A stretch of DNA of 22,737 nucleotides from IMG/VR virus record IMGVR_UViG_3300027659_000223, positions 1-22,737 of that record; one strand, 5' to 3'. Source of the stretch: a virus. The translations under genes and the position numbers were made by a program. Position 1 is the stretch's first letter. Each line of letters opens with the position of its first letter. This document shows, one piece after another, positions 2,585-22,737 of the stretch. The notes beneath the pieces were generated by a model. It was not told the origin of the DNA. It saw only the letters and a program-made list of their open reading frames with translations, and did no database searches.

Positions 2585-2587
2585 TTG

Positions 2588-5500: not shown

Positions 5501-6964
5501 ATTTGCAGCATTTGCGGCAGTTGGATTTGCTACATTGTGCATTTCTAAATATATTTCACCTTGGGTCAACGTGTCAGATTTCGGTATAATCATACTACCG
5601 CCCTGTGTATTGACATCCGTTATTCTAAGATAGTTACCCTGAGTTGTAGTAATGTTATACCCGGTTTTTGTATCTGTAGTAATAGGTTTTGGAATTTTAA
5701 TTTCGGTGATAGAAGTCGTTATAATTTGCTTACCACCTACGTAGGCTTTACCGCCTGATACATTAAATACAAGATTTGGATCTTCATCATATGTAGTAAT
5801 AGGAGTAATCAAAAAATCTTTAACTACGTAGTTTCCAGATTCGTCATACGTTCTTTGTTCCAGTTCTTTTCGAATTTCTGTTGCACTGTCAATTTCTGTA
5901 ACATATTCAATTTGACCTTTTCTAAAGGTTAATAATGGAATAATATTTTCTGTAGTGTCCGCTTTACTATCAGCAGTTAAATCAAATGTTGCCAAAGACA
6001 GGTCAATTTTTAATCTATCAGCACCTGGAGCAAAATAGTTAGAACTTCCTATTGCTGGATCTAACAGAGATGCATCATCTGCACTAGTTACAATTTGTTC
6101 TGTTACATATAATCCAATTGCCTTTGATGGGCTATTTGTATTTTTATCTGGTACTATTTTTTGTAAATTTGATCTTACTAAATATCCGTTTTTATAAAAA
6201 TATGCAACATCCTGTGTAAGAATAATTGTGGGGCAAGTACATTGTTTAACGTATTGTATATTTTCATTACCTATAGATATTCCTGGTGCAACATCAACTT
6301 CAATTTCAATAGGGCTTACTATAGTTGTTACATATACTTCTTTTGTTAATGCAGGATGCACTAAACGATCACCAACTTCAATTAATGTAGTTGCGCTTGT
6401 CAATATTATAGTTTTAGAAAAATTACTTGTTGTTGAATTGGAATTTTTCGTTACATTTAAATCAACGACCGCATTAAGGGTCGTTCCAATATTATTTAAA
6501 GCATCTGATAAAGTATCATGAAAATAAAGAATATCTTTTTCTGGAAAAAATCCATTGTTTGATTCGTTAAATCTTTTTAAACTTATAACAATAGATGGTA
6601 GATCCCCTATACTAGGATCGTTCTTTTCAAAAACAAATTCCACCAACCCCACAACATCTGTATTTTTACTGGTAACATATTTGTCTTTAAACAAAGTAAT
6701 ATCTATAGTAGCGTTTGTACTATCTTTATTTAATATTCTCACTGTGCGTGCGTCAAGATTTACACTTGGTTTTGCGCCTGTTACTTTTTGTCCATCGGTA
6801 TATAGATAATCACCAATTCTTTTAATTTGATTTTGAAAAATTGTTTGCGTTTGATTCAATTCTCTGGACTGAATTGCTACTCCAGGTTTAAACAAAACCT
6901 TATGAAAGTTTTTGTCTTCTGTATAATCATCAAAATATGGTGATACGCTTGTGTCGATTGCCAT
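2588..6964 (-). CDS. Giant DUF4815-type baseplate/tail protein with C-terminal S74 chaperone
   Basis: A 1458-residue protein whose N-terminus (FDDYTEDKNFHKVLFKPG, then AIQSRELNQ at about residues 31-39) is the hallmark of DUF4815-type structural proteins in T4-like marine phages. Residues 40 to about 1230 are mainly beta-prone. Residues about 1240-1345 form a long Ala/Gly-rich hydrophobic stretch, followed by a Lys-rich amphipathic segment (about 1350-1384). The last 74 residues match the peptidase S74 intramolecular chaperone: SDIRTKENI with the Ser1385/Lys1390 dyad spacing, then YRFEY, GLMAHEVEKVYP and NYSLLGI. In known S74 proteins this domain drives trimer folding and cuts itself off before the Ser. 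It lies just after gp8, where T4 has gp9/gp10. A good Shine-Dalgarno (AAGGA) sits 6 nt upstream of the start. The protein is likely a trimeric baseplate or fibre component. Confidence 0.86.
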   Translation of the reverse strand: MAIDTSVSPYFDDYTEDKNFHKVLFKPGVAIQSRELNQTQTIFQNQIKRIGDYLYTDGQKVTGAKPSVNLDARTVRILNKDSTNATIDITLFKDKYVTSKNTDVVGLVEFVFEKNDPSIGDLPSIVISLKRFNESNNGFFPEKDILYFHDTLSDALNNIGTTLNAVVDLNVTKNSNSTTSNFSKTIILTSATTLIEVGDRLVHPALTKEVYVTTIVSPIEIEVDVAPGISIGNENIQYVKQCTCPTIILTQDVAYFYKNGYLVRSNLQKIVPDKNTNSPSKAIGLYVTEQIVTSADDASLLDPAIGSSNYFAPGADRLKIDLSLATFDLTADSKADTTENIIPLLTFRKGQIEYVTEIDSATEIRKELEQRTYDESGNYVVKDFLITPITTYDEDPNLVFNVSGGKAYVGGKQIITTSITEIKIPKPITTDTKTGYNITTTQGNYLRITDVNTQGGSMIIPKSDTLTQGEIYLEMHNVANPTAANAANTKVGTLVFKNIEYDSSLGNAVTQVKLFFHNFALVKEAPATWADWSTKYKISVADGQYIATVFYSSPTANTLLGNYGVSSTPCFALYREPGVDEVAYWYNQWTINDGRDIAKTKKKFAESLLSNSATSDYARMISSTKSFYQVINGSPFSDGLLNVNQVKSIVGVSNSDTSHYTAATYASPFFYANISAQGVDSRNNLVVIDTRPSDTVIFPVGKKEYLKTLKNIQTTYSRVIRNAIFTSGIYTKTLSYPESFALGDGTVVSSTARTNFIISVKSGATAAVNYGIFNFEQGTVTISADSTIATINIGDASFSGLADIEFLIQADNLTPRTKTLVTDASQFINVVTPEIDYSLKISDVATMYGVYKLANASTFFGQWQANASYTYNNIVVKNGGLYSAIIPSSNVTVVNSNAWSMVNSTINSSFILNEGQKDGWYDHAYIKYIGATARIPGNVLVVYDYFTHSGDGPCTVDSYPESYYAKIPTYKSVVDSREYNLRDCLDFRPKRINGSNYLNFDTAIFPTSYINTEADVTYYLGRIDRLFISKDAVNFDSPYNRLYIDSGVEANNPDSKIEVDDKSRLAIATLTVPPYATSAFEVVIIPEDNKRFTMQDIGRLEKTTIALDKAIRIQSIEIANLKSQIVNDNGDTLLKSGILVENFSDFSKADLENPNYNIAISTSEGQCYALFEARQIELTLTSASNYSFYSDLITAKYTEEVFISQTEANGSINPNPGGIDDRRGHATISKRNSYSLNLWQFGLIAAGLAVAGLAIYNYFAATAAFVGLSTTGSIIASVAAAASTVWAGLVAAGSYIAAGVGYVISATGGLIVAGANAVAGWIGASSVTTLAASIPYVAAAIAIYYVVDAIAPGVTKVIKDVAKAAVNVVKNVTKSVGNALKKIFSDIRTKENIVFVRKLKTGINLYRFEYKKEFKDLPYAGHGIFHGLMAHEVEKVYPAAVTVHSNGYKMINYSLLGI

Positions 6965-6970
6965 TCTTTT

Positions 6971-6975
6971 TCCTT
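6971..6975 (-). promoter_or_regulatory. Ribosome binding site of the giant DUF4815-type gene
   Basis: On the minus strand AAGGA lies 6 nt before ATG 6964 and overlaps the gp8 stop codon. Most other genes in this operon lack a clear Shine-Dalgarno and rely on overlap, so this gene probably receives independent, stronger initiation. Confidence 0.7.
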
Positions 6976-8272
6976 AAAATTCTATTACAAGGTGTAAATT
7001 ATCTGTTTGATTTGTTGATCTAATGACAGGGGTTCTGTGTTCAATATAATATAAATCACCTTTATTTGGCATAACTTCGGGTTCTAATGATGAAACAACT
7101 TTTGCAGTTGCCCCAGAAGTCTTGCCTATAATATATTCTTCAGTGTCAAAATTAATATAGTTGCTAGTTAGGTCAAACGATCTAACAAATTTAATATATC
7201 CGTTGCCTGCAGTAATATTAGCAGTGACAACATATGCGTTTGCAAAACTTGTGCGACCTTCAATAAATTCATTTTGTGCAAACGTCCCATTTACTGTTTG
7301 TAAATTTATTCCAGATAGTGAGCTTAATGTAGCAGCGTTTGCAATATTATTATATGCATCTATTGGATTTTTTATTATTCCTATTTTTCTATATGAAAAA
7401 TTGCCAGGAAAATCGCCGAAGCCTTCGTTGTAATCCGTTTTAGAATTAAACATTAAACTATGCGATCCTAATTCAGATACAGGATCATATCCATGCCCAT
7501 TGATAGGACTTACTATAATTTGAATATTTGCATATTTTCCTGAACCAGTACTATCATTGATAACGCCGGTAACATGTCTATAGTTTGTTCCAATATTTGT
7601 ATAGTTGAAATCATAAATAACCCCTAAATCCAATTTTGGAGTTATCTCTGCATCTTGACCATCTCCGTTTATAATTACGCTTGAGAGTGTAGAATATCCT
7701 ATACCGCCGTTTAAAATTTTAATTTGTTCAATTGAACCTTTATTTGAATTTGCTGCAACATCTTCATCTGTTAAAACGGGCATCCAATTATTTGTTAAAA
7801 ATTTTAATTTGTTACCGATTGAAATATTGTATAGATATTTCCATCTGTACTTATCTGCTAATGTAATAATATTAAAATTTCTACCAGTAGGTTCAATCGT
7901 AGAAGACCTACCATTGTTATTACTTATACATTTATATACGTTTAATTCACTGTTTAGTACATAAAACGGTTTTTCAAATAACATATCATCTAAATTTGTA
8001 TATTCATCGTATATTGTATCAGCAACCCAATTTATTCTTTTAACAACGTGTATTACATTTTCGGGCAATATTCTTTTCAAACTAACCATTTCATCCCACA
8101 TTTCTGTGACATTGTCTTGATTATCTTTTGGTACAGGTATGTTAGAATCATCTTTCCAATTATTAGGTTTACCAAAAAACATATACAAAGAATTTCCGCT
8201 AGATAGCGTAATACTATCTAAGAAGTTTTTAGAATTGTTTATCTTTAATTGATTTGTTATTATATTGGACAT
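6974..8272 (-). CDS. 8: Baseplate wedge protein gp8
   Basis: This is a homologue of T4 gp8, a dimeric component of the baseplate wedge that contacts gp7 and gp10. The N-terminus (LYMFFGKPNNW, residues 29-39), EMWDEMVSLKRILP (57-70) with a following RINW, the KYRWKYLYNI segment (141-150), IIKNPIDAY (299-307) and the C-terminus YYIEHRTPVIR...NQTDNLHLVIEF (408-432) line up with matching blocks of T4 gp8 as I recall them. It is 432 residues, about 100 longer than T4 gp8 (334). The extra length lies around residues 180-280 and 310-400, and the second stretch holds two copies of an 'F..(N/E)E.I.G.TS.A.A.V' module (about 331-350 and 375-393). It sits in wedge-gene order, 8 bp after the Ig-like gene. 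Confidence 0.9.
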   Translation of the reverse strand: MSNIITNQLKINNSKNFLDSITLSSGNSLYMFFGKPNNWKDDSNIPVPKDNQDNVTEMWDEMVSLKRILPENVIHVVKRINWVADTIYDEYTNLDDMLFEKPFYVLNSELNVYKCISNNNGRSSTIEPTGRNFNIITLADKYRWKYLYNISIGNKLKFLTNNWMPVLTDEDVAANSNKGSIEQIKILNGGIGYSTLSSVIINGDGQDAEITPKLDLGVIYDFNYTNIGTNYRHVTGVINDSTGSGKYANIQIIVSPINGHGYDPVSELGSHSLMFNSKTDYNEGFGDFPGNFSYRKIGIIKNPIDAYNNIANAATLSSLSGINLQTVNGTFAQNEFIEGRTSFANAYVVTANITAGNGYIKFVRSFDLTSNYINFDTEEYIIGKTSGATAKVVSSLEPEVMPNKGDLYYIEHRTPVIRSTNQTDNLHLVIEF

Positions 8273-8280
8273 CTATTTAT

Positions 8281-9798
8281 TTATTGCGGATTGGTTTCTA
8301 AAAATACAATATCTGCAGTTAAATTTGCAGAACTTGTATTTAACGATGCTTTTATACTATCTATAGTAATTGGTGAATATGTAGAAATTTCAGAATCTTC
8401 TGTAGCTTTTACTTGAGCATAATTCATTTTATCGGGACTTGTCTCATTATTTATTTCACTAAAAATAACGAATCCTGCAGGATGTAATATATTTTTTACA
8501 GATAACATCCAATCTTCAATTGATTTTGATGATCGAACCACGTAAGAAAATGGTTGATAATATACTGCAGCATCGTCACCTGAAAAGGGTGTTTTCCCCT
8601 GTATAACCATTGTGTCTGATACTTGTCCTTGGGTATCTTCCCAATCACCGGCTCTATAAGTAGTTCCCCCTACAATAGCTGACAAGTTTGCTGTTTCTAA
8701 AAATGTCACTGTTGCATTTCCAGAAAAAGTAGAAAAACTTCTTAGATACGTATTACCTGAATCTAGTATTTCTACAATTCCGGATCCAGAGGTTAAATTT
8801 GCACTATCATATACGCTTAGATAAAAATACTCAGATGGTTCAAAAACATAATCATCATAGGTAACAAAAGTAATTGAAGTTGTATTTGTTACAGCATTTG
8901 CAGCAGGCGCAGTTACTGGAGGAAAACTACCTGTTAAGGATGTTAGTCCAACAAAATCATTTGCAGTTAAATCTGATGCAGGAAATAATTCATTAGGAAC
9001 ATCCCAGCTTGTCCAAGGAGTTATTCTATAATATAAGTTTGTTCCTGCATTTATATTTGTTGTAGAAACAGTAAAAGTTACATTGTCTCCTTCTATAACT
9101 TTTTGCTTGTTGGCAGTAACTAATAAATTTTTAGATGCAGTAGATGTTGCGTCTAATACTGTGGTTGTTCCGCTTAATTGTAGAGAGTAAGCACCGGTAG
9201 GATATATTAACATCACTATGTTTTCGATACCTTCAAGTATGTCATCTACTATAAGCGATAGTTTAATATTTGCTGTGGTGTCATATGTACTGTTTGCTGC
9301 AAATATTAAATTCCCCGATGTAGGAACATTAAACACATCTGCATTTTGAATTCCAGATAATACGTAGGGAACTACTGTACCTACAGGAACATTTACTGCG
9401 GAAACATTAAATGTTACAGTTTCTCCCTCATTTATAGTTTGTCTATCTGGTTTAATATAAAATTCAGCAACGTTTGCAGTAATGGTTTGTGATGTATCTG
9501 ATATTGTAAATCCTACGCTTTCTGTTCTTCCAGAACCAGTTAACCGTAGAATAAAGCTTTCCGTTCCTTCAGTGTTTAAGTCGTTTGCAATATTTAAAGT
9601 TACTTTACTTTTATCATTTTGTATTAAAAAATTTCCAGACAAACTAGAAATTCCTATAAAATCTAAAACACTAACATTTGCTCCAGATATATTAAATGGA
9701 ACTAACGTGCCATTAGGAAGACCTGTTCCATTTAAAGAAATTACAAGAGCTTCACCTTCGGATGCTGTAGTTCTGCTATAAGATAGTGTATATGCCAT
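8281..9798 (-). CDS. Calx-beta/Ig-like repeat protein with wedge-type C-terminal module
   Basis: A 505-residue protein. Three Calx-beta/Ig-like units are visible: residues about 5-103 (SEGEALVISL...GTLVPFNISG...EGTESFILRL...TISD), about 114-216 (NEGETVTFNV...GTVVPYVLSG...EGIENIVMLI) and about 227-347 (IEGDNVTFTV...GTNLYYRIT...EPSEYFYLSV...EILD). Residues about 380-448 are a different module: YRAGDWEDTQGQVS, then YYQPFSYVVRS and KNILHPAGFVIFSEI. I recognise this as the C-terminal end of the gp7-position wedge proteins of marine T4-like phages. The start codon follows the stop of the upstream gene directly (TAAATG). Calx-beta and Ig-like domains on phage virions are usually surface-exposed and may bind host or particle carbohydrate. 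The ligand is unknown, and whether the protein sits in the wedge is inferred from the C-terminal module and gene order. Confidence 0.78.
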   Translation of the reverse strand: MAYTLSYSRTTASEGEALVISLNGTGLPNGTLVPFNISGANVSVLDFIGISSLSGNFLIQNDKSKVTLNIANDLNTEGTESFILRLTGSGRTESVGFTISDTSQTITANVAEFYIKPDRQTINEGETVTFNVSAVNVPVGTVVPYVLSGIQNADVFNVPTSGNLIFAANSTYDTTANIKLSLIVDDILEGIENIVMLIYPTGAYSLQLSGTTTVLDATSTASKNLLVTANKQKVIEGDNVTFTVSTTNINAGTNLYYRITPWTSWDVPNELFPASDLTANDFVGLTSLTGSFPPVTAPAANAVTNTTSITFVTYDDYVFEPSEYFYLSVYDSANLTSGSGIVEILDSGNTYLRSFSTFSGNATVTFLETANLSAIVGGTTYRAGDWEDTQGQVSDTMVIQGKTPFSGDDAAVYYQPFSYVVRSSKSIEDWMLSVKNILHPAGFVIFSEINNETSPDKMNYAQVKATEDSEISTYSPITIDSIKASLNTSSANLTADIVFLETNPQ

Positions 9799-11178
9799 TT
9801 AAAATCCTGGGTATTTAAATCGTATTGATCTGATATCTGGAACAGTTACAACTTTTACTTTGTGTGATGTATTATCAACTGGGCTTAAAATGTTGCCAGT
9901 ATATCTAATATTTAAAAGTGTACCTTTTTTAATAGTATGTTCTATTGGAAAAGTAATTGTAACTATTCCATTTTTTATAGTATAACCACCTTTAAGGCTT
10001 TCAGTTGGCGCACCGGGCACGATAACAATATTACTACTATAATTAATACCTGCATTTTTAACTTCGACGCTAACTATAGACCCTACTCTGGTTACACTTG
10101 ATACCTCGGCTTTAGCAAACTTTCCATTGCCGTCTGTGTCAATAATATATTGTATTGGATGATTAACTTTATATCCTAATTTACCATCTACCACAGTTAT
10201 TTTAGAAATTACAGAATATAATGTTGCAGATAATTGTGTTGTATCTATTGTGGTTCCTAATAATACAGATTTAGTTGCAGTAATAGTTTCTCCACCAATA
10301 AAAAAACCTTTGGTTTTCTTATTATCTAAAATTAATTCGTATACATCATTTCCATTTAAATCTATTTGTTGTACATTTGTTACAACCGCAGTTGATTTAG
10401 ATGTGGTTCCTAATATCTCAGTATCTTTAAATTGAAAAAGAGTTTCGTTAGAATCCATTTGTTTAACACGCAGGGTAGTATATTCTCCCCATTTGCCTGA
10501 AGATGGTCTAAAAACTATATCATATGGATAAAAGAAATCAATAGTCTCTTTATATAAAATATTAAATAAAATTCTATAGGCTTCTTCGGTTCCTTTTCTG
10601 CTATAAATTTCTCTTATCTTTTTTGCTAAAAATTTATTATCTGATAATGAAGATGCGGATATATCATATGCATAATTATTTAAAAATTTACTAATCATAT
10701 CTTCAGATGTGGTATCTATATCTGCATACTTAGTAATATCTTGCAATAATTCTTGTGCCTGATTATTTTGTTCTAAAAATTCATAATACGCTTTTATAAA
10801 TGTAACAAACATTCCATAATCTGTTTGTATAAACTCTGGCAATTGATTTTCAATTAATACAGATAATCTATTTTGTATTCTTGAAAAAGGATTTTCTGCG
10901 CCAGCGCCAGTATGCAGTGTATAAATTAATGGATCTTTTATAGCACCATACACACCATACGTATCTGCAGTATAAAATTCACCTTCAATATCATAAAATG
11001 TAATTGTTATGTATATACCTTTTCCGCCACGATCAATGTCTTCTTGTATTGCTTCTGTTCTAGTTAAAAATAACGGATAGAACCAACCAGTCAAATCTCC
11101 ATTTGTTTGGTTAGATTTTGAGGTGCCAAATAGTTTTAATGGCCCAGAATCGGTTGATTCAAAAACGTTATCTATCAT
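9799..11178 (-). CDS. Baseplate wedge protein at the gp7 position (N-terminal module)
   Basis: A 459-residue protein encoded between gp6 and the Ig-like protein/gp8, the place of T4 gene 7. Residues 31-79 (GWFYPLFLTRTEAIQEDI...GEFYTADTYG) are a domain I recall from structural proteins of marine T4-like phages. Residues 111-150 (NQLPEFIQTDYGMFVTFIKA, then YYEFLEQ) start a helical wedge domain. It continues with D-ID-TT-EDMISKFL (153-166), KKIREIYSRKGTEEAYRILF (186-205) and FFYPYDIVFRPSSGKW (215-230). The rest is beta-rich with an 'F.DTEILG.TS.STAVV' module like the one in gp8. T4 gp7 is 1032 residues; this is less than half, and the usual C-terminal YYQ.FSYV/HPAG module lies in the next gene. 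The start is 2 bp after the gp6 stop. Naming it gp7 rests on synteny and motif recall, so no symbol is given. Confidence 0.75.
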   Translation of the reverse strand: MIDNVFESTDSGPLKLFGTSKSNQTNGDLTGWFYPLFLTRTEAIQEDIDRGGKGIYITITFYDIEGEFYTADTYGVYGAIKDPLIYTLHTGAGAENPFSRIQNRLSVLIENQLPEFIQTDYGMFVTFIKAYYEFLEQNNQAQELLQDITKYADIDTTSEDMISKFLNNYAYDISASSLSDNKFLAKKIREIYSRKGTEEAYRILFNILYKETIDFFYPYDIVFRPSSGKWGEYTTLRVKQMDSNETLFQFKDTEILGTTSKSTAVVTNVQQIDLNGNDVYELILDNKKTKGFFIGGETITATKSVLLGTTIDTTQLSATLYSVISKITVVDGKLGYKVNHPIQYIIDTDGNGKFAKAEVSSVTRVGSIVSVEVKNAGINYSSNIVIVPGAPTESLKGGYTIKNGIVTITFPIEHTIKKGTLLNIRYTGNILSPVDNTSHKVKVVTVPDIRSIRFKYPGF

Positions 11179-11180
11179 TT

Positions 11181-13025
11181 TTATTCTGCAATCATAGTTG
11201 TAGTTAAACCACTTGATCTTTTAGTTGCTGTGTCTGCTTTTCCGTCATCTAACACAAGTATTATATCTTTCGTTGTTTTAATGTCCAGTCCTGCGATACT
11301 CGAATATATTCTAATATCGTTTGCATTTTCAATATATCCTGTTATATTTAAACTTGCAAAAGATATCTGTCCCGTAATATAATCTACACTTCCTATATCA
11401 GAAACCAATGTTGTGCCTGTGAGAAAATCTATTAAATTTATTGTACCTGTTGTCTCTGCAGTTAATACATCTTTTAGGTATGTTGTATATAACACATTGT
11501 TTACAATATAATAAAATGCAGAGGATTCTATAGTACCGGGTACTAATTGATTTGCAAATTTTATAACAGTGTCACCGGTATAACCGTTTGACGCACCTAT
11601 AATTGGAATTATTCTTTTGTTTACTTTTATAGAAGTGGTATTGCCTATTACCGATCCGTCTACTGCATCAATAATTTTAGATAATTTAGAAAAAACAAAA
11701 GTCTTATTAAATTTTTGTAATTCTTGTGTGAAATATCTTTCTATTGCGTCGCGAACAAATATTTCTATTTGAGGTATAGTAAATCTAGAGTTTTTAGTTT
11801 GTGCTTTAACAGATGTATCAATATTAATATAAAGATAATTAGGATCAACAAACTCCGGAATAATAGATATTACTTTTTTATTTGCTAAAATATTTTCTTT
11901 AATATTTGTTTTGACTGCTTCACTAATTGTATATCCATCGTACGGTTTTAGTGATATAATAACTTTTCCATATTTAGGAGGATCATTGTCTTCTCCTCCC
12001 CAAACTGCTATAGAATCGACTAAAGGATAATTCGCTTCAATTATTGCTTTATAGTCATCTGCAGTAACTGCTCTATTATATGATGATAAAAATCTAGGAG
12101 CCTTAAATTTTATTTCATCTAATGTATCTGCAACATCGCCTCCTGTAGAATTTTGTGTTGCTATTATACTAGTGTCTACTGTAACACCTCCAATTTGAAT
12201 TCCTAGTGAGAACGCCTGCACTATATTTCCAGAAACATTACTATCTATTCCTGAACTAATTAAATATTCAACTTTAACTATATTGCCTGGTTCTAATTTT
12301 TTACCAAGTACATTATCACCAAAAAATATTTCATAAAATCCTGAGGGATTTTCTTCTAAGAAATATACTTTAGACGTTGGCAATGTTACCGCTAAATTTT
12401 CCGCTAATGTATAACTTTCTATTGTCAGATCTGTATATGATTTTTGAACAGTAACTCGTAAAGTACTAGTATCTACATTCTCATTAGGTATCGTATATTT
12501 TTCAGACGGACCAGATAAATCCACTCTATACGAATAAACTAATGGTTGTCCTTCTACAATTTCCAAATTATCGAATAAATAAATTCCGTCTTGCGGATAA
12601 ATTGTTACTGCATCTAAATTTACAAACGTATATTCTTTGCCGCTAATATTTGTCACAAAGGGAGAATATTTTGGCAAAGTTAATGATGTGGGTAAATCAA
12701 TAGGATCCGTTACTGTAAAAGATACCTTTGCTCTAGAACTTCTATACGACAATGGAGTATACCCTAAATGTTTTGCGATTGATACTGCAGATTGCCGTTT
12801 TACTGCAGAATCCATAAACATTTCATTTGCAACCATATTTGCTAAGTATGCATTATAATGTGTATTGTATGCTAGTATGTCTAATAAAATATTAAGACTA
12901 GACGCTTCAAAATCATAATCTTTAAAAATAAGATTATTATCTTTGTCTCTATAGTTTGTTAAAAATTGTTTTAGATTTGTCTTAATTGGATCAAAATCTA
13001 ATTCTGCTAATCTGTAATTTGCCAT
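11181..13025 (-). CDS. 6: Baseplate wedge protein gp6
   Basis: A 614-residue homologue of T4 gp6 (660 residues), the wedge subunit whose dimers form the ring that ties the six wedges together around the hub. Diagnostic features are the N-terminal 'LAELDFDPIKTNLKQFL' block, the FKDYDFEASSLNILLDILAY helix and the NTHYNAYLANMVANEMFMDSA segment (about residues 55-75), followed by KRQSAVSIAKHLGYTP. Further on, RAVTADDYKAIIEANYP and a VWGGEDNDPPKYGKV segment match the gpJ-like (gp6/P2 gpJ) baseplate fold shared across contractile systems. The start overlaps the gp25 stop by one base (TAATG), and gp25-gp6 adjacency is conserved in many myophages. Assignment is firm. Confidence 0.93.
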   Translation of the reverse strand: MANYRLAELDFDPIKTNLKQFLTNYRDKDNNLIFKDYDFEASSLNILLDILAYNTHYNAYLANMVANEMFMDSAVKRQSAVSIAKHLGYTPLSYRSSRAKVSFTVTDPIDLPTSLTLPKYSPFVTNISGKEYTFVNLDAVTIYPQDGIYLFDNLEIVEGQPLVYSYRVDLSGPSEKYTIPNENVDTSTLRVTVQKSYTDLTIESYTLAENLAVTLPTSKVYFLEENPSGFYEIFFGDNVLGKKLEPGNIVKVEYLISSGIDSNVSGNIVQAFSLGIQIGGVTVDTSIIATQNSTGGDVADTLDEIKFKAPRFLSSYNRAVTADDYKAIIEANYPLVDSIAVWGGEDNDPPKYGKVIISLKPYDGYTISEAVKTNIKENILANKKVISIIPEFVDPNYLYINIDTSVKAQTKNSRFTIPQIEIFVRDAIERYFTQELQKFNKTFVFSKLSKIIDAVDGSVIGNTTSIKVNKRIIPIIGASNGYTGDTVIKFANQLVPGTIESSAFYYIVNNVLYTTYLKDVLTAETTGTINLIDFLTGTTLVSDIGSVDYITGQISFASLNITGYIENANDIRIYSSIAGLDIKTTKDIILVLDDGKADTATKRSSGLTTTMIAE

Positions 13026-13423
13026 TATCTTACTCTACTTATAGATGTTGTTATTGTTATTGGGGTATTTCCATTCTTTAAAGTAAATATAACGTTAATT
13101 AGTAAATCGTTTTTATCTTCATATTCATCAACACTTACTTTTAGTAATCTTGCCCGCGTTTCAAATTTTTCTATAGATTCAGCAATTGTTCTTTCAAGTG
13201 CAATTTTTACCGCAGCTGAAAAATTTTCAAACATTAAAGACCGTATTTGAGTTCCTATTTCAGGATGAAACGGTCTTTCAAAATTGTTTGTTCTTAATAG
13301 ATGTCGTATTGATGTTTTAACCGCATCTTCATCTGTCTTTAGATAAAGATCTTTAGTAAACGGATTAACCTTAAAAGAAAGGTCCAAGTCTACGTATTGT
13401 CTAGTTGTTGTTTCTGTTGCCAT
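13025..13423 (-). CDS. 25: Baseplate wedge protein gp25 (GPW/gp25 family)
   Basis: A 132-residue protein matching T4 gp25 (132 residues), the sheath-initiator component of the baseplate that is homologous to TssE of type VI secretion. Visible family marks are the N-terminal VDLDLSFKVNP block, EDAVKTSIRHLLRTN (residues 32-46), the core ERPFHPEIGTQIRSLMFE loop (49-66, equivalent to the conserved EPR-type loop) and a C-terminal beta strand (LLINVIFTLKNG). In contractile machines this protein connects the inner baseplate ring to the first sheath ring. It lies directly upstream of gp6 with a TAATG overlap. No clear Shine-Dalgarno is seen near the ATG. Confidence 0.95.
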   Translation of the reverse strand: MATETTTRQYVDLDLSFKVNPFTKDLYLKTDEDAVKTSIRHLLRTNNFERPFHPEIGTQIRSLMFENFSAAVKIALERTIAESIEKFETRARLLKVSVDEYEDKNDLLINVIFTLKNGNTPITITTSISRVR

Positions 13424-13441
13424 ATTTGTTATTTATTAACC

Positions 13442-14176
13442 TTATGCTAAAGCTAAAAAAACACCTGCGCCGCCGCCTGCAGTTTTATCATTCCAAAATG
13501 TAGCAACGGGTAGTTCAGATTTAACTACCTGCCCATTAATTTGAATAAAAGATACATGTATCCATTTCTTAACAAATGGAATCTTCGTTTGGGGGTCAAC
13601 TGCTTCTCTATATTCCAATAGTAATTGTTTATGTGGTATATTTTTTTTAATCCATGTAGCAATTTCTACATATTTTTCCCCGCTATCACCAGGAAACCCC
13701 ATATCTACTGCTGCCCCTAATCCATGGTCGGTATATTCAGATTCTTTGCCAATTTCTCCAGTTATTCTAAAACAGCTGGTAACTACCATCTTTGGATATT
13801 TTTTCTTAATAGGATCAATACAATTTAATGTTAAATTTCTTATATTTTGGACTATTTGTTGTACTGTTAAACCTCGTTGTGCTTTTAATGTCGATTTAAC
13901 TAAATCTTTTAATACATATTTTCCGTTTTCTGTAAGTTTAAAAGTCAACGGAAAATCTACTGCGCTTGCAATTTCGTTATCTATTTCTGGAGCAAGATAT
14001 GTTTGTCCATCTTCTATGCTCCATGTCTGAATTTCTTTATCACGATAATCTCGTTTAGCTCTAGCTTTAACAAGCTTCCCTGCTTTTTCTTTATCATCAA
14101 GAATTGTAGCAGGAACGCCAGTATATGCTTTTTGTGTATTATCGGTGAAATCTATAACAACAACTTTATTTACCAT
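13442..14176 (-). CDS. Virion-module M15-type peptidoglycan peptidase
   Basis: A 244-residue protein with an M15 (D-Ala-D-Ala carboxypeptidase/endolysin-type) zinc-peptidase domain from about residue 100 to 212. The sequence shows TSCFR (133-137) and then SEYTDHGLGAAVDMGF, giving H151 and D158 in the H-x6-D pattern. LLLEYR follows with E188 as likely catalytic acid, and then KKWIHVSF with H207 as third ligand. All expected metal ligands are present, so it looks active. Residues 1-95 form an unrecognised N-terminal domain and the C-terminus is a short Gly/Ala-rich tail (TAGGGAGVFLALA). It is encoded between gp5 and gp25, so it is probably carried in the virion to cut cell-wall peptides during tail penetration rather than serving as a lysis enzyme. 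The nearby gp5 glycosidase-like domain appears dead, which supports that role. Virion location is inferred. Confidence 0.85.
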   Translation of the reverse strand: MVNKVVVIDFTDNTQKAYTGVPATILDDKEKAGKLVKARAKRDYRDKEIQTWSIEDGQTYLAPEIDNEIASAVDFPLTFKLTENGKYVLKDLVKSTLKAQRGLTVQQIVQNIRNLTLNCIDPIKKKYPKMVVTSCFRITGEIGKESEYTDHGLGAAVDMGFPGDSGEKYVEIATWIKKNIPHKQLLLEYREAVDPQTKIPFVKKWIHVSFIQINGQVVKSELPVATFWNDKTAGGGAGVFLALA

Positions 14177-14182
14177 ATTATG

Positions 14183-16780
14183 TTACCATTTAGATGAGGG
14201 TAAAATATTCTTTACCGCTGCAATTGCTTTGTTTATAATTTTAGCTCCTGCATCTACAGTATCAGTTGTAAATGCTGAGATTGTTGTGCCTGCTGCTTTT
14301 GCCGCTCCTGTCAAATCTGTTGTTGCTTTAGTATCCGCCACTGTTGGTGCAGGTGTTGGATTTTTTAATCCCGCGGCATTTAACGCTGCTTCAGTTTTTG
14401 GTCCTATTACGCCGTCCGCCGTTAATCCTTTTGATTCTTGGAATGCTCGAATTTCTGCATCCGTCGTAGGATACTTTGTTATATTTTTTACCTTGGTTGT
14501 TACATTTGGATTGGTTGTTGTTGTAGAAGTTACTGTAGTATTTGCAACTGCATCCTTAACAACTTTTTTCACTATAACAATTTCATCTTCAATTATTGTT
14601 GTTATGGTTGTCGTTGTAGTAATTGGAGGTGTTGGGTTAACAACGACAACTTCTTTTGTAGGATAAACAACTACAACTTTTTCTGTTGGTAAAACAACAG
14701 TTTCTTCTGTAGTATTAGTTATTGCTGGCGGAGTTATAACTTCAGTAACTACACCTTCTTTAATAGTTGTAGATATTATTGTTTCTTTTCTTTCTGTTGG
14801 TATCTCTACAGGAACAACATCATTATTCATTTGTCCACTTTCTTCTAAGGTTTTAATATGTGCGGGAGCATCGGGCTCTCCACCATCAAACGCAAAAAAG
14901 GATTCTGGAACAACATCTCTAATTAATACTGGTATTGGTGTAGCGTCAATAGTTTTTGCCTCAGGTAGAGGAAGCGCTCCAAATGCAATCCCCTTTATAG
15001 CATTAGCTCCCATTTTTGTTTTTATTATAGCCGCGTCCATTAATAAAGATTGTCCACCTTTAATACTAAAAGTACTTGCTGTCCCAGATTCCATTGAAAA
15101 ATCTTGTCCTGCTTTTTGCGATATAGATCCACCTTTTGCATACAAGTTAATATTTTTACCTTGCAAGTTTAATGAGCCTTCTGTAATTAAATTTAAGCTT
15201 TCTGTACTAGATACATTAATATTTTTTCCAGTAATAGTTGTAGTACCTGCAGTTTCTATTGAAGTATCTTTGTGACTTGTTACAGCTAAACTACCTTCTA
15301 CTACTATGTGGGCGCTATTTTTAACCAGCATACTCATCTTGCCTTCAACGGTTAAACAATGAGATCCTCTAACATATGTAAAATTATTGCGATCAATTAT
15401 TTCGTAATTATCACCTATAACTTTTCTAACCATAGACCCGTTAACATCTATTTCAATATAAGCACCGGACTTATGAAATACATGAATTCTTTCTGCTCCG
15501 GGAGTACTATCCAATTCAATCACATGCCCCGCTTCTGTCTCAGTAACTTGGTTATATGGATAACCCGCGCCATAATTTGGGCGAGGTTCGTCCCAAGTTT
15601 GTGTGGTATTTGGTAATGGTATACTTGTTACTCTTTTATTGCTTTTTACTTTAAACGTATTATGTGTTTCATCCCCCAATGCCAATTTATTGACATCCGG
15701 TAATCCCAGATATTCGTATTTAGGATATTCTTTATTTGGATCGGAAAATCCCCTGCGTTTTAATAATTCTTTATTATTTACTATACCTTGATTATTTGCA
15801 TTTACATCTGCTAAGTATGTTAATGCAGTTTCTATATCATTATTGAAATCATCTGAAGAACCTCCCAATGCAGAATTGACAGAAACAAAATAATCTTTTA
15901 CTAAAACTCCACTTTCAAGTTTTTTGTTTAATTTATCCGAATTATTAACACCTATGACTAATGAGGTTCCTAATAAAGCGCCTATAATTTTTGGATCATC
16001 TTGTTGTGTAATTTTACCCGATAACAATAACGACTTATAATTAGATTCGCTTGCAGATAGCATGGAGTTATATTGAGCAGATTCCGATTTTAAAAACTCA
16101 GCTTTAGAACTAATTCCATCTTTGCCTGTCCAATTTGAATTAGTATCTGTCCATGCAGTAAGAGCAAAATCATTATTCGGTCGTTTCACATAACCCAAGG
16201 AAACTAATGTTTGTACGCTTAGTTGGTATTTGCCTAATCTACCATCCATACTTTCTTTAGTCATATCATCGCCGGATGCTTTACTTCCTATGGTTGCAAA
16301 AATAGTTTTTAAATCATCTGCGGTTAATGGATAGAGGTCATCTTCTCTATTAACGTTTCCTATAGTAGTAATAGGTTTATTATTTTGGTCTACAACAGGG
16401 CTACCATCTCCACTTCGAACAATATTTTTTTCAGCTTTGTTTGCTTCCTGTTTTTGTTTTTTTATTCCCTCAGGTTGTTTCTCTGGCTTACCTGCGATTG
16501 TTCCTATAATTAGTGGCCTTTGAGCTTCTTCTCCATCCAAAAACCAACCAACTACCCAACTGCCATTGACAATCCCCACAGGCGTATGCCCAAGACCAGA
16601 TGTGGCAGCAGATGTTATAGGCTGAAGAGGTATAGCCCAAGGTAAATCTCTAGTTGGCAATAGTGTTACATCGTCAGTATGAAACCCAAATATTCTTACC
16701 CTGCAGCGGCCTAATTGTTCGGGATCGTTTCTATCTTCAACAACCCCAGTCCACCATACAAATTTATTCCCATATATCAT
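14183..16780 (-). CDS. 5: Baseplate hub/needle protein gp5-like with PG-binding tail
   Basis: An 865-residue homologue of T4 gp5, the trimeric spike at the hub. Residues about 8-97 are the OB-fold (WWTGVVEDRNDPEQLGRCRVRI...HTPVGIVNGSWVVGWFLDG). Residues about 150-300 resemble a lytic transglycosylase/lysozyme: S169-G170, G180, GKYQ (183-186) and NWTGKDGISSKAEFL keep the family spacing, but the catalytic Glu position is Ala168. Residues about 395-580 include a TPGAERIHVFHKSG strand region and short repeats (VEG, ITGKN, LQGKN) like the T4 gp5 needle beta-helix. Residues 655-770 are a Thr/Val/Pro-rich linker. Residues about 768-804 are a PG_binding_1 domain (IRAFQESKGLTADGVIGPKT). An Ala-rich tail ends the protein. 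The start overlaps the gp27-like stop by 4 bp (ATGA). T4 gp5 is 575 residues, so this form is much longer. No PAAR tip gene is seen here. Confidence 0.9.
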   Translation of the reverse strand: MIYGNKFVWWTGVVEDRNDPEQLGRCRVRIFGFHTDDVTLLPTRDLPWAIPLQPITSAATSGLGHTPVGIVNGSWVVGWFLDGEEAQRPLIIGTIAGKPEKQPEGIKKQKQEANKAEKNIVRSGDGSPVVDQNNKPITTIGNVNREDDLYPLTADDLKTIFATIGSKASGDDMTKESMDGRLGKYQLSVQTLVSLGYVKRPNNDFALTAWTDTNSNWTGKDGISSKAEFLKSESAQYNSMLSASESNYKSLLLSGKITQQDDPKIIGALLGTSLVIGVNNSDKLNKKLESGVLVKDYFVSVNSALGGSSDDFNNDIETALTYLADVNANNQGIVNNKELLKRRGFSDPNKEYPKYEYLGLPDVNKLALGDETHNTFKVKSNKRVTSIPLPNTTQTWDEPRPNYGAGYPYNQVTETEAGHVIELDSTPGAERIHVFHKSGAYIEIDVNGSMVRKVIGDNYEIIDRNNFTYVRGSHCLTVEGKMSMLVKNSAHIVVEGSLAVTSHKDTSIETAGTTTITGKNINVSSTESLNLITEGSLNLQGKNINLYAKGGSISQKAGQDFSMESGTASTFSIKGGQSLLMDAAIIKTKMGANAIKGIAFGALPLPEAKTIDATPIPVLIRDVVPESFFAFDGGEPDAPAHIKTLEESGQMNNDVVPVEIPTERKETIISTTIKEGVVTEVITPPAITNTTEETVVLPTEKVVVVYPTKEVVVVNPTPPITTTTTITTIIEDEIVIVKKVVKDAVANTTVTSTTTTNPNVTTKVKNITKYPTTDAEIRAFQESKGLTADGVIGPKTEAALNAAGLKNPTPAPTVADTKATTDLTGAAKAAGTTISAFTTDTVDAGAKIINKAIAAVKNILPSSKW

Positions 16781-18135
16781 TTTAATGCCTTATAATATTC
16801 TGCTTTAGGAAAAGAATCTTTAACTACGTTCATAGTTATATAATGTGTTTTTGGATTTATCTTATGTGACAAATTTGTTATCATATAATACCCGGTATAT
16901 AATTTATCGTGTATATCAGCTGCCTTATCATGCGAAGACAATGCTCCAGGTGTACCTTTTGGAAATACTATTTTTATAATGTTTCCTGCTTCTAAATCTG
17001 TTCTACCCGGAACAACAAGTTGCATTTTAAAATTATTAAGTTCTAACATATTGGATCTTCGATTGCCGTGCATATATTTAGATATTTCATCAAAGTTTGT
17101 ATTTGTGTTATTGTGTAATTTTGGCACACTATAATTAATTTCTATATATCCTGCAGGATTTCTTACTGTAGATAAATCAAATAAAGGTACGGTTTCATTA
17201 TCATTTAAATGAGAATACCCAGTAAATTTATTACCATGATCATATACAACATTTTTAAATGTTTTATTGTAAAGATTAATATCAATTAATGTACTAGAAA
17301 GATATCCTGTTCTCGTATTGTCCAATTGATCTAAAGTTTTCTCAACACTTAAAGATTTTATAGAATACATGGCTTTAAATTTTTCATCTGGACCTAGAGT
17401 ATTAATATAAGATTGTGAATAAAAATATGTTCCATTTAAAAGTCTTTTTGCATTACTAAAAAGTTTGTCAGTACTACTAAAATAAAATCCTTTAGTTGTT
17501 TCCCAAAATAAGTAATTTGCCGCTTTGTCTTTTGCCGGTAAAGATTTACTAGCAATCCAATTAATACATTGTATAGGAGACCAGCCTGGACTAACAAACT
17601 TAATTATATTATCTGGAGATTCTAAAAATGTTAAGGGAGTTTTGTCTATATCTGCAGAATTTCCTGAAAGTTTTGAAAGAGGCAAATTTCTAACGGCTTG
17701 TAAATAATTTAAAAATATATTACTTATTATTTGTTGCGGAGTTCCGTCAAACGCCATGAACAATGGGTTTAGTGTATCATTAAATGCTTCTGTTGAAACA
17801 ATATTTAATTCATATATAATTGTGCTACCATCTTTTGCATATGCTTTATTCGCAATAGAATAAACTTTGAAGGTTTTAAATATTCGTTTTCCATCATCCA
17901 AAGACGGCGTTACCAAATTTATGAAAATAAATTCTTCACCTATTAACGGAAAAAGAGATAATAAATTTGTATTATCCGCAAGTGTTAATGTTCCAGATAC
18001 AACAGGATTAAAAATGCTTTCATATAAATTCAGTTCGACTAAAAAATTCGTTATATCTAATTTTTTGTTGGCAGAAAATAATATTAATTCTGTTATATCT
18101 ACCAGACCCGGGGCCTGTAAAAGTTGTTCAGCCAT
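16777..18135 (-). CDS. 27: Baseplate hub protein, gp27-like
   Basis: A 452-residue protein in the position of the hub protein that carries the gp5 spike. The N-terminal section (VDITELILFSANKKLDITNF, then LVELNLYESIFNPVVSGTLT, about residues 32-51) and the F.TFKVYSIA...TIIYELNIVSTEAF segment match the hub families of T4-like phages (gp27; analogous to P2 gpD and VgrG N-terminal domains). The LVVPGRTDLEAGNIIKIVFP segment near residues 375-395 is a typical tube-like domain closure, followed by HDKLYTGYYMITNLSHKINP. T4 gp27 is 391 residues, so this is slightly longer. It overlaps gp53 by one base at its start and gp5 by four bases at its end, consistent with stoichiometric translation of hub proteins. 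Identity as gp27 comes from fold-type motifs and adjacency to gp5. Confidence 0.85.
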   Translation of the reverse strand: MAEQLLQAPGLVDITELILFSANKKLDITNFLVELNLYESIFNPVVSGTLTLADNTNLLSLFPLIGEEFIFINLVTPSLDDGKRIFKTFKVYSIANKAYAKDGSTIIYELNIVSTEAFNDTLNPLFMAFDGTPQQIISNIFLNYLQAVRNLPLSKLSGNSADIDKTPLTFLESPDNIIKFVSPGWSPIQCINWIASKSLPAKDKAANYLFWETTKGFYFSSTDKLFSNAKRLLNGTYFYSQSYINTLGPDEKFKAMYSIKSLSVEKTLDQLDNTRTGYLSSTLIDINLYNKTFKNVVYDHGNKFTGYSHLNDNETVPLFDLSTVRNPAGYIEINYSVPKLHNNTNTNFDEISKYMHGNRRSNMLELNNFKMQLVVPGRTDLEAGNIIKIVFPKGTPGALSSHDKAADIHDKLYTGYYMITNLSHKINPKTHYITMNVVKDSFPKAEYYKALK

Positions 18136-18743
18136 TATTTGTTAATTGTTTTAATATAGTTGGATACTACGTCTTGCACTATATTTGGTTTTAATACTCG
18201 GATTCTTCTATTGGATTCATTCTTGGCTTGTTCTATTTCATAATTGCTTTGAAAATCTGTTCCAATGTCTGATTCTTTATACGAAATAGGAACATTAATT
18301 TGTTCGGTCTCTGGCAAATCTATAAGTATTCTTTTTGGTTTTTTGTGCGTCGAATCTTCTGCTAAAAGAAAAAAGGTTTCAACTTGATAATTTTGTGCGT
18401 TGACTGCTCGATTGACTGTAAACACATCTTTTTCTGTTCCATATTTACTAACAACAAATTTATATAAATCGTTGTCTGATAAAGGCCATTCAAATCTAGG
18501 ATCTTGTATATTGTTTGTCAGTAACACTAACCAATGCAAATCCTGAGTACTGTAATACCTATAAGATAATTCTTCAGGCGTTTCTCCATCCAATACATCA
18601 TACAATTCAAAATATGAGTTATTGTCTAAAAATTCTTTAGATAAAATAGCTCTTCTAAAAATATCAGCGACAACTTGTTCGGTATCTCCATCATCTAAGG
18701 TATATGATATTAAAGGAAAAGATTCAAAAAGATTAGTACTCAT
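18135..18743 (-). CDS. 53: Baseplate wedge protein gp53
   Basis: A 202-residue homologue of T4 gp53 (196 residues), the last wedge subunit added; it lets wedges join around the hub. The N-terminus (LFESFPLISYTLDDGD) and the FRRAILSKEF block match the family. Residues 44-90 carry a LysM-like fold signature (YFELYDVLDGETPEELSYRY, then HWLVLLTNNIQDPRFEWPLS). The Lys/Arg-rich C-terminus ends with IRVLKPNIVQDVVSNY. The start overlaps the gp48-like stop region by 11 bp and the stop overlaps the gp27-like start by one base. T4 also has 53 next to 5. Confident. Confidence 0.92.
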   Translation of the reverse strand: MSTNLFESFPLISYTLDDGDTEQVVADIFRRAILSKEFLDNNSYFELYDVLDGETPEELSYRYYSTQDLHWLVLLTNNIQDPRFEWPLSDNDLYKFVVSKYGTEKDVFTVNRAVNAQNYQVETFFLLAEDSTHKKPKRILIDLPETEQINVPISYKESDIGTDFQSNYEIEQAKNESNRRIRVLKPNIVQDVVSNYIKTINK

Positions 18744-19893
18744 TTTGTGTTATTCCTTCAGACGTCATTTGTTCTAATTCTTGGAATGTCAGAGACATAT
18801 TAATTTCTACAGGAGAACCGTCTTCGAATGTTACGAACTGTTCGCCGCCATATTCTACTGACATATTTGTTAGTGCACATCTAGCAAATCTATGGATATG
18901 TGGATTTATTTTATCTTTATAAAAATACTCTATATCAAATTCAGATGGGTATATGTAAAACATTTTATTATCCGTCAATTCTGGATGCATATGTTGCTTG
19001 AATGTTCTAATTATATTTTCTACTTTTTCGGTTTCAGATTTGTCTTTAGGGAAAAATTTATAAGAGAATTGAAACGTTCTATAGTCTACAGATTCAAATA
19101 AAACTTCTCTAAATGGATTTACTTTTTGTCGTGTACTCAGTTCTAGTACATCACTTATTACACCTCCACCGGCTTTTAAAGATGGTACTTTTGCTAATTG
19201 TGTTAGCAAGGCGGCCCCAATTTCCGGGCCAGCATTAGAAATCGTTTCCTTAAGACTTCCACTTGCACTTCCTTGAACCAGAAGACCGGTCAAAAGACCC
19301 ATATCTTTATTTGCATAATTTGTGCCGTATTTAACTGCCGGTCTTTCTGATACATACAACGTAATAACTTCTTTGAGTCTTGAAGTTTTTCCAGATGCAA
19401 ATGCAGGTTGTTTATCTAGAAATTCTAAGGCCTCGTCTACTGCTTCTTTAGCTATTATTCCTCCAACTACGCCAATTCCTCCGGCTTTTAAAAGATCCCC
19501 TACCGTAGAAGTTTTTCCTAACATGGATTTAGTTAGCGCGCCGATGGTTAACACTCCTACTAGAAACCCCGCATTCTCTTTAATATTAGTGCGAGCAAAT
19601 TCTACTGCTGTTTGCGAAAAATTTGATCGTCTAATGGCATCTAATCTAGTTTGTTCTTGATTACTTACAGTATAATCTTTTTCTTTAGCAACTTTTCCTT
19701 TTGTACTTTTGTCCCGAACATTGATATAAAATGCAACATAATGTTGCATATCTGGCTTTTGTCTTAGGCCTATTGGAAACTCTAAAGTTCCAATTTGATA
19801 TTCACCTGTTTTGTGTTGATTTGCATAAACACCTTCTCCCGCATTTTGGCGCCTTGCATCTACAGCATCTTTTGGGTTGTTTACGTTGGACAT
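18733..19893 (-). CDS. 48: Baseplate tail-tube cap protein, gp48-like
   Basis: A 386-residue protein and the first gene of the leftward operon. Residues 31-47 (EYQIGTLEFPIGLRQKP) with HYVAFYINVRDKS (51-63) form an N-terminal tube-type strand region. Residues 109-158 are a Gly-rich hydrophobic insert. Residues 258-300 (NPFREVLFESVDYRTFQFSY, then FFPKDKSETEKVENIIRTFK) and about 343-373 (NMSVEYGG...VEINMSLTFQELE) are the closing tube-fold strands. This architecture is what marine T4-like phages annotate as gp48, which in T4 (364 residues) sits with gp54 on top of the hub and templates tube polymerisation. The start ATG lies about 26 nt downstream of the predicted minus-strand late start site. 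The gp48 versus gp54 choice rests on recalled motifs and length. Confidence 0.82.
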   Translation of the reverse strand: MSNVNNPKDAVDARRQNAGEGVYANQHKTGEYQIGTLEFPIGLRQKPDMQHYVAFYINVRDKSTKGKVAKEKDYTVSNQEQTRLDAIRRSNFSQTAVEFARTNIKENAGFLVGVLTIGALTKSMLGKTSTVGDLLKAGGIGVVGGIIAKEAVDEALEFLDKQPAFASGKTSRLKEVITLYVSERPAVKYGTNYANKDMGLLTGLLVQGSASGSLKETISNAGPEIGAALLTQLAKVPSLKAGGGVISDVLELSTRQKVNPFREVLFESVDYRTFQFSYKFFPKDKSETEKVENIIRTFKQHMHPELTDNKMFYIYPSEFDIEYFYKDKINPHIHRFARCALTNMSVEYGGEQFVTFEDGSPVEINMSLTFQELEQMTSEGITQNEY

Positions 19894-21667: not shown

Positions 21668-22360
21668 ATGGCTTTACCTAAATTAGAAACACCAATCTAT
21701 GAATTGAAATTACCGTCAACCGGAGACAAAATAAAATTTAGACCGTTCTTAGTCAAAGAATATAAAATATTACTAACATCACTAGAATCAGATAGTGAGG
21801 AAATTACAAGGATTGTAACTGAGCTAGTAGATGTTTGTACATTCAATAAATTAGATATGAACATGCTTGCAAATTTTGATATAGAATATATCTTTTTAAA
21901 TATGCGAGCAAAGTCTATAAGTGAGATTACGCATTTAACATTAAAATGCGAAAATTGCGATAATAAAATTCCATTTGATCTAGATTTAACGAATGCAAAA
22001 ATAGAAAAAAACGACAACCATACATCAAAGATACAATTAACAGATGATATTATTTTAGAAATGCGATATCCAAAATTTAATGAAATGATAGATATCTATG
22101 AAAATTTTAAATCTGATAGGGTTATTTTATTATTAAGCTCTTGTATAAAATCTGTTTATACAAAAGACAAAGTATATGAAGAATATACAAGCGACGAACT
22201 ATTAGAATTTGTAAATTCATTTTCTAAATTGCAGTTTGATATGTTGGAAAATTTCTTTTTAACTATGCCAAAATTAGTACACCGTGTAGAACAGGATTGT
22301 AACGTTTGCGGAACTAAAAATAATTTAAAACTAGAAGGTTTAGAAAATTTTTTCGTCTGA
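21668..22360 (+). CDS. 26: Baseplate hub assembly protein gp26-like (T4_baseplate family)
   Basis: A 230-residue protein of the T4 gp26 family (T4 gp26 is 208 residues). The N-terminus (LPKLETPIYELKLPSTGDKI, then KFRPFLVKEYKILL, residues 23-36) is typical. Two CxxC pairs, C94/C97 (KCENC) and C211/C214 (CNVCG), can form one zinc site that pins the C-terminal part to the middle domain. The intervening part is helical and acidic. In T4, gp26 takes part in hub assembly. Here the last codons (GAA AAT TTT TTC GTC TGA) contain two overlapping slippery heptamers, so part of the product is probably extended by a -1 frameshift. Short gp26 plus long fusion would parallel the G/GT tail-assembly chaperones of lambda-type phages. 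Confidence 0.86.
   Translation: MALPKLETPIYELKLPSTGDKIKFRPFLVKEYKILLTSLESDSEEITRIVTELVDVCTFNKLDMNMLANFDIEYIFLNMRAKSISEITHLTLKCENCDNKIPFDLDLTNAKIEKNDNHTSKIQLTDDIILEMRYPKFNEMIDIYENFKSDRVILLLSSCIKSVYTKDKVYEEYTSDELLEFVNSFSKLQFDMLENFFLTMPKLVHRVEQDCNVCGTKNNLKLEGLENFFV
22345..22354 (+). promoter_or_regulatory. Candidate -1 frameshift slippery site
   Basis: Two heptamers of the X-XXY-YYZ form are in register with the gp26 frame: A-AAT-TTT at 22345-22351 and T-TTT-TTC at 22348-22354. Both allow tRNA re-pairing in the -1 frame just before the gp26 stop at 22358. The -1 frame is open from 22324 to the stop at 22546. Confidence 0.75.
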
Positions 22361-22548
22361 CCCTTTCCCATGAGGGGTTATATAGTTACTTTAAATTAAA
22401 TTTTAAATTGATGCACAATCATAAGTATTCATTGACGGAAATAGAAAATATGATACCATGGGAAAGAGATACGTATGTTGCTATGCTTATATCAGATATA
22501 AATGATGATAATGATAAAAGAAAACAAAAAAATCTAAGGAATAGTTAA
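22345..22548 (+). CDS. gp26 -1 frameshift extension (gp51/GT-like second half)
   Basis: This -1-frame reading segment ends at TAA 22546-22548. After slippage at gp26 codons 227-229 it adds 64 residues, starting RLTLSHEGLYSYFKLNFKLM and containing HKYSLTEIENMIPWERDTYV, then AMLISDIND and a Lys/Asn tail. The fusion would be about 293 residues. The 'F.LM..HKYSL.EIENM.PWER..Y' pattern resembles small proteins encoded right after gp26 in other T4-like phages, and it begins upstream of the only in-frame ATG (22411). That ATG has no Shine-Dalgarno and would give just 45 residues. Both facts favour frameshift expression over an independent gene. Alternatively it is a separate 45-residue protein. The stop overlaps the next start (TAATG). 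Confidence 0.7.
   Translation, partial: KFFRLTLSHEGLYSYFKLNFKLMHNHKYSLTEIENMIPWERDTYVAMLISDINDDNDKRKQKNLRNS
22361..22376 (+). other. Possible stem-loop downstream of the slippery site
   Basis: CCCT at 22361-22364 can pair with AGGG at 22373-22376 around an 8-nt loop; an alternative pairs CCC 22367-22369 with GGG 22374-22376. The spacing of 6 nt from the slippery site fits a frameshift stimulator, and these are the only GC-rich runs nearby. The stem is short (4-5 bp), so its effect is uncertain. Confidence 0.35.
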
Positions 22549-22737
22549 TGTTACCTATCAACACTCAAGCGTCATCAACCGAAGATAGACATATTATTGC
22601 TGCCTCTCTAAAGAGACAAGAAGAAGAAGCTTACAAACAAACAAAAATTTTAGAAAAATTAGCAGACGAATTTGGTAAACAGAGACGAGCTAGTGTTAAA
22701 CAAAATACTAATAAACAAGCAGAAACTTCTACAAAGG
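22548..22737 (+). CDS. N-terminal part of a charged coiled-coil protein (cut by window edge)
   Basis: ATG 22548 overlaps the previous stop (TAATG), and the frame stays open for 63 codons to the edge. The visible protein starts MLPINTQASSTEDRHI and becomes Lys/Glu/Gln-rich (AASLKRQEEEAYKQTKILEK, then LADEFGKQRRAS), which should form an alpha-helical coiled coil. Its place directly after a gp26/chaperone pair is where a tail tape-measure (gp29-like) or another hub protein would be expected, and a long coiled-coil protein fits. Too little is visible to name it. Confidence 0.65.
   Translation, partial: MLPINTQASSTEDRHIIAASLKRQEEEAYKQTKILEKLADEFGKQRRASVKQNTNKQAETSTK

Follow-up and report, generated by a model that had tools for sequence, protein, structure and literature searches.

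A probable programmed -1 frameshift in the gp26 tail assembly chaperone gene of a marine T4-like phage, with an upstream Shine-Dalgarno-like element

Tail assembly chaperone frameshifting and the gp26 locus

In phage lambda, the tape measure protein is chaperoned by the short protein gpG together with gpGT, which is made by -1 frameshifting, and the two also recruit tail tube subunits; a 2016 recoding review regarded this G-T frameshifting as conserved in long-tailed phages, T4 excepted (PMC5009743). The tail assembly chaperone (TAC) genes of T4-like phages were identified by Vladimirov, Gautam and Davidson (2022, Virology 566:9-15, PMID 34826709), and passages in later papers that cite this work mention poly-T slippery sites in T4-like TAC-N genes (PMC12846349) and separate short and long TAC genes in some T4-like phages (PMC10885494). 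A -1 frameshift at the TAC locus, on a GTTTTT motif, has also been described in Vandenendeviridae and Andersonviridae (PMC12846349). The present analysis deals with the gp26 gene of IMGVR_UViG_3300027659_000223, a 22,737-nt record of an uncultured marine T4-like phage that carries no annotation and is referred to below, over its whole length, as the window. This gene very probably yields a short chaperone (TAC-N) and a C-terminally extended one (TAC-NC) by programmed -1 frameshifting on the heptamer T-TTT-TTC. The frameshift and the resulting gp26-gp51 fusion had been proposed in an original prediction made from the window alone, and are strongly supported by comparison with relatives, which share the heptamer, show purifying selection on the extension and have no fixed start codon for it.

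The locus resembles the T4-like TACs of Vladimirov et al. in belonging to the same gene family, with a short form and a C-terminally extended long form. As TAC genes and poly-T sites have already been published for T4-like phages, the frameshifted gene is a correct finding but one already known in kind, that is, a well-preserved example of a described gene-family trick. The upstream stimulator, the clade-specific hairpins and a heptamer-less version of the Ackermannviridae type may be new details; the analysis of the Shine-Dalgarno (SD)-like element and of the hairpins may go beyond the 2022 paper, at least as that paper is represented in the works citing it, and it may itself hold some of the stimulator observations. 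The TAC loci of Vandenendeviridae and Andersonviridae are similar in having a poly-T slip site near the end of TAC-N and a -1 frame that stays open in the direction of the tape measure gene, but they belong to other families with another motif context and are compared by layout, not by homology. The analogy with lambda G/GT, also drawn in the original prediction, is the right one; gpG and gpGT are absent from virions (PMC5009743), as T4 gp51 is (PMC3004832). However, the heptamer is here T6N with an SD-like element upstream, and the likeness implies no sequence similarity.

The gp26 (TAC-N) gene lies at 21668-22360 on the plus strand, encodes 230 residues and matches PF12322 (T4_baseplate, E=7.6e-57) and PHROG 150 (phrog_150, E=3.4e-61). 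Its 3' end reads GAA AAT TTT TTC GTC TGA, with the slippery heptamer T-TTT-TTC at 22348-22354 of the plus strand in the correct frame and the 0-frame TGA that ends the short form one codon further on (22358-22360, plus strand); the coordinates, frames and residue count originally given for this arrangement all hold. Most ribosomes would terminate at the TGA and release the 230-residue TAC-N, while a minority, slowed by the SD-like element that lies about 9 nt ahead of the heptamer and perhaps also by a downstream hairpin, would let both tRNA-Phe slip back one base and would read 64 more codons, giving the 293-residue TAC-NC (gp26-gp51). If the two forms act as lambda gpG and gpGT do, the domain they share would coat the tape measure protein, the extension would recruit tail tube subunits, and both forms would leave before tail completion. 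We infer the slippage itself, its efficiency and the chaperone role from sequence comparison and analogy. On the window alone, the evidence from the slip-site layout is only modest and not decisive, since 82 in-phase X-XXY-YYZ heptamers, six of them TTTTTTN, occur in the 7089 codons of the window genes, and the case thus rests on conservation.

Conservation of the heptamer and of the -1 frame extension

Relatives were drawn from IMG/VR contigs and named T4-like phages and dereplicated by shared 4-mers, leaving 94 loci whose independence is approximate. The named phages include Pelagibacter HTVC008M, Methylophilales Melnitz, Pseudomonas pf16, Stenotrophomonas Mendera, a Nitratidesulfovibrio phage, Vibrio V09, Aeromonas 65, Aeromonas G2, Pseudoalteromonas XG4, Xanthomonas X1 and the cyanophages S-SRM01 and S-SSM7. 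A TTTTTTN heptamer in the slippery phase close to the gp26 stop is present in all 94 (TTTTTTC in 82, TTTTTTT in 8 and TTTTTTA in 4), so that not one member of the set lacks it, in agreement with the suggestion that the gp26 family of T4-like phages shares the frameshift. The gp26 stop follows one codon past the heptamer in 84 of the 94, and its identity varies (TAG in 45, TAA in 41, TGA in 8). The 89 Phe-Phe pairs found elsewhere in these genes served as an internal control; they are mostly encoded by TTCTTT, and only 3 of them have the T6 context. The codon ahead of the T run is variable (AGT, GAT, TCT, AAT and others), with only its final T fixed. A second slippery heptamer had been proposed, A-AAT-TTT at 22345-22351, which in the window is also in the X-XXY-YYZ phase; however, AAATTTT is not conserved in the relatives and was rejected as a second slip site, which leaves T-TTT-TTC as the slip site and AAATTTT as incidental. 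The layout of the window is also found in S-CAM1, Sinorhizobium phage phiM12 and Aeromonas phage Ahp1. Conservation across relatives thus makes the case for a frameshift decisive, as far as comparison of genomes can. It also refutes the idea that the gene is truly one frame, with the break arising from a sequencing error or a decayed fusion. Homopolymer runs invite errors, and T4 does have a truly fused protein (gp51), but 94 non-redundant loci, taken from many data sets and also from finished isolate genomes, show the same T6N break, and an artefact can be given practically no weight.

The -1 frame is open from ahead of the slip point through the gp26 stop to a TAA at 22546-22548, as originally described, and the 64 residues that follow Phe-Phe in this frame are RLTLSHEGLYSYFKLNFKLMHNHKYSLTEIENMIPWERDTYVAMLISDINDDNDKRKQKNLRNS (RLTLSHEG...PWERD...LRNS). 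This gp51-like extension (TAC-C; 22354-22548 with its stop, plus strand) forms the C-terminal part of TAC-NC and matches phrog_634 (E=2.9e-25) over frame residues 3-65, and in the fused product of the window, residues 1-278 match positions 5-280 of phrog_150 and residues 188-290 match positions 17-117 of phrog_634. The extensions of relatives align from the first codon past FF and share the motifs NF, HHKYSL and MxPWER, the last of which corresponds to the PWER similarity noticed in the window. The ratio of nonsynonymous to synonymous substitution rates (dN/dS), calculated pairwise by the Nei-Gojobori method within the clade of the window, is 0.24 over the first 17 codons past the slip site, which precede the first ATG of the window, 0.18 for the rest of the extension and 0.17 for gp26. 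The extension, including the residues ahead of any ATG, is thus under purifying selection, to judge from these values. Moreover, dS in the first 17 codons past the slip (22354-22404 of the window and the corresponding codons of relatives) is about half of that elsewhere (0.62 vs 1.19-1.23), as would be expected if a nucleotide-level signal were also present there, and hints at such an added signal.

A separate small gene, gp51, translated from its own ATG either through reinitiation or through coupling to the translation of gp26, would account for the same open frame. Most database records do annotate it in this way, as 'baseplate hub assembly catalyst', and in some relatives an ATG overlaps the gp26 stop or follows it within a few codons (TGATG or TAATG in Mendera, V09 and D507). 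However, the only ATG of the window in the -1 frame, at about 22411, lacks a Shine-Dalgarno sequence, as had been pointed out, and across the 94 relatives the first in-frame ATG falls at thirteen different positions, is absent in 2, and is preceded by an SD-like sequence in 2. Furthermore, conservation begins ahead of any ATG: a tblastn search of the 64-residue extension against phage genomes matched 480 records, and all of the matches listed begin at its first or second residue, ahead of the ATG of the window, which bears out the earlier remark that the similarity starts before it. A separate gene would also leave the invariant T6 heptamer unexplained, and T4 gp51 is a fused protein. Independent initiation of gp51 is, therefore, very unlikely.

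Elements flanking the slip site

A purine-rich SD-like motif ends 8-9 nt ahead of the heptamer in 88 of the 94 relatives and has the form GGAGGG in 34 of them, while the window carries a weak version, GAAGG, at 22334-22338 of the plus strand, 9 nt upstream of the heptamer. Since the codons of this element encode a conserved Leu-Glu-Gly, constraint on the protein had to be tested. G-ending synonymous codons are in strong excess at this trio, which makes up GGAGGG, with 38 of 79 (20.7 expected), 59 of 93 (26.3 expected) and 28 of 91 (5.9 expected), and none of 20,000 simulations attained the observed counts. Apart from the trio, no G-ending excess was found at any codon among the 13 examined. 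The confinement of the excess to these three codons indicates selection acting on the RNA sequence, and the comparison of codons points to an SD-like element that is kept by codon-level selection across the family. Similar SD-like elements stimulate -1 frameshifting in bacteria, according to a passage in PMC10885494 that cites Larsen et al. 1994, and we infer the same function for the element described here.

The position of this element also bears on transcriptional slippage, by which mRNAs with a base inserted or deleted in the T6 run, and not slipping ribosomes, would give the fusion. Homopolymer runs can make a polymerase slip. However, the run usually consists of exactly six Ts followed by C (82 of 94), which is short for slippage by RNA polymerase, and the strict codon phase, the adjacent stop and the selected SD-like element 9 nt upstream fit a ribosomal mechanism. 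The probability of transcriptional slippage is, thus, very small, lower even than that of independent initiation.

Downstream of the slip site, a hairpin TGACCCTTT-CCCAT-GAGGGGTTA is predicted in the window at 22358-22380 of the plus strand, 3 nt past the heptamer (RNAfold -9.7 kcal/mol, z=-1.1), and could be a clade-specific stimulator. It contains the CCCT/AGGG stem of the original prediction, whose CCCT starts 6 nt past the heptamer; the stem stands as a predicted structure, but it is limited to close relatives and its z score is low. On average, the 50 nt past the heptamer fold better than controls (mean z -1.16 vs -0.45, -0.16 and 0.04). About ten cyanophages have a stem of 10-11 bp past the heptamer, and a clade of 26 others has a short hairpin with compensatory changes, whose covariation score was reached by 0 of 500 shuffles in a control that leaves relatedness in. 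Downstream hairpins are thus genuine features of certain clades and not of the family as a whole, and they lend weaker support than the SD-like element does.

Several observations weigh against the reading of the locus as a TAC gene expressed by frameshifting. A family-wide downstream structure was rejected, since RNAalifold gave no consensus structure for the clade of the window nor for the SMAHE/SIARE cyanophage set. Relatives of the Ackermannviridae type hold the extension without the heptamer, which is thus not universal in the wider family. As for the chaperone assignment, the top structural matches in PDB of the AlphaFold (AF2) model of the window gp26 (mean predicted local distance difference test score, pLDDT, 87) include the HK97 tail assembly chaperone 2ob9, but this match is below significance (E=0.26, prob 0.33), and a PHROGs profile search of the open reading frame (ORF) following the extension returned no match that would confirm a tape measure protein.

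In the Ackermannviridae phages Vi01, CBA120 and Menlow, the extension is kept as LLSYFVMCDELK..SMPWHLD but is preceded by no T6 heptamer and no start codon, and the gp26 junction reads ATT TTC ATT TAA TTTTTGAAATTG, in DNA that is nearly identical across genera. The arrangement may reflect an unusual start or a shift of a non-canonical kind. In the Vibrio phages D507 and K413, gp26 ends in CTT TTC AAG TAATGG, also without the heptamer, and a -1 frame ATG overlaps the stop, possibly making a stop-start coupled version of the same extension. A tentative joint reading, plausible though somewhat short of probable, would be that the TAC frameshift sites of T4-like phages are driven by a GGAGGG element that synonymous codon choice maintains 9 nt ahead of the T6 heptamer, with downstream hairpins that vary by clade, and that the Ackermannviridae shift non-canonically, perhaps by P-site slippage on TTC in ATT TTC ATT TAA.

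T4 gp26 and gp51, annotation and gene neighborhood

In T4, gp26 (208 residues) matches phrog_150 only up to position 235 of 282, and gp51 (249 residues) matches it over 13-280 and additionally matches the gp51 profile phrog_634; PF12322 is present in both. The two proteins are thus paralogues that correspond to the short and long forms, with gp26 as the short one and gp51 as that form lengthened by the same C-terminal extension. The extension of the window is homologous to gp51, as it matches phrog_634 and is co-linear with T4 gp51 on phrog_150. However, T4 has two separate genes, on opposite strands and without a frameshift, and the window has one gene with a frameshift. The abstract of the study that identified the T4-like TAC genes is said to report frameshifting as conserved in several T4-like groups, with separate genes in the group of T4. 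By this correspondence, the locus is the TAC-N/TAC-NC gene of T4-like phages, a functional analogue of lambda G/GT. Searches of solved structures by sequence with gp26 found no meaningful match, and the NCBIfam search gave no match.

Both T4 proteins, gp26 and gp51, appear as hub assembly chaperones in a 2010 review, which describes gp51 as required yet absent from the final particle, with a function called unknown (PMC3004832). The comparison would allow gp26 and gp51 to be understood as short and long tail assembly chaperones, so that the same protein pair may be reached by two routes, one gene with a frameshift or, as in T4, two genes, in a phage still listed in 2016 as an exception to the conserved G/GT frameshift (PMC5009743). 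Annotation would also be corrected for hundreds of genomes of T4-like marine phages in which gp51 is a separate, arbitrarily started or missed gene. Public records give gp51 arbitrary internal starts or leave it without annotation, and a joined coding sequence was found in none of the phage records examined.

The next gene, presumed to encode the tape measure protein from the position and length of the ORF in relatives, starts with an ATG that overlaps the extension stop (TAATG) and is cut by the end of the window (22548-22737, plus strand). The ORF directly following the extension has 526-606 residues in two close relatives and 656 in Vibrio phage V09, and in HTVC008M a 'putative tail tape measure' is annotated two genes further on. 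On the minus strand, opposite to the gp26 block, genes for the baseplate wedge and the tail (PHROGs 438, 219, 232, 230 and others) form a block at positions 875-19893 of the window, several ORFs of which match only profiles of unknown function or virion structure.
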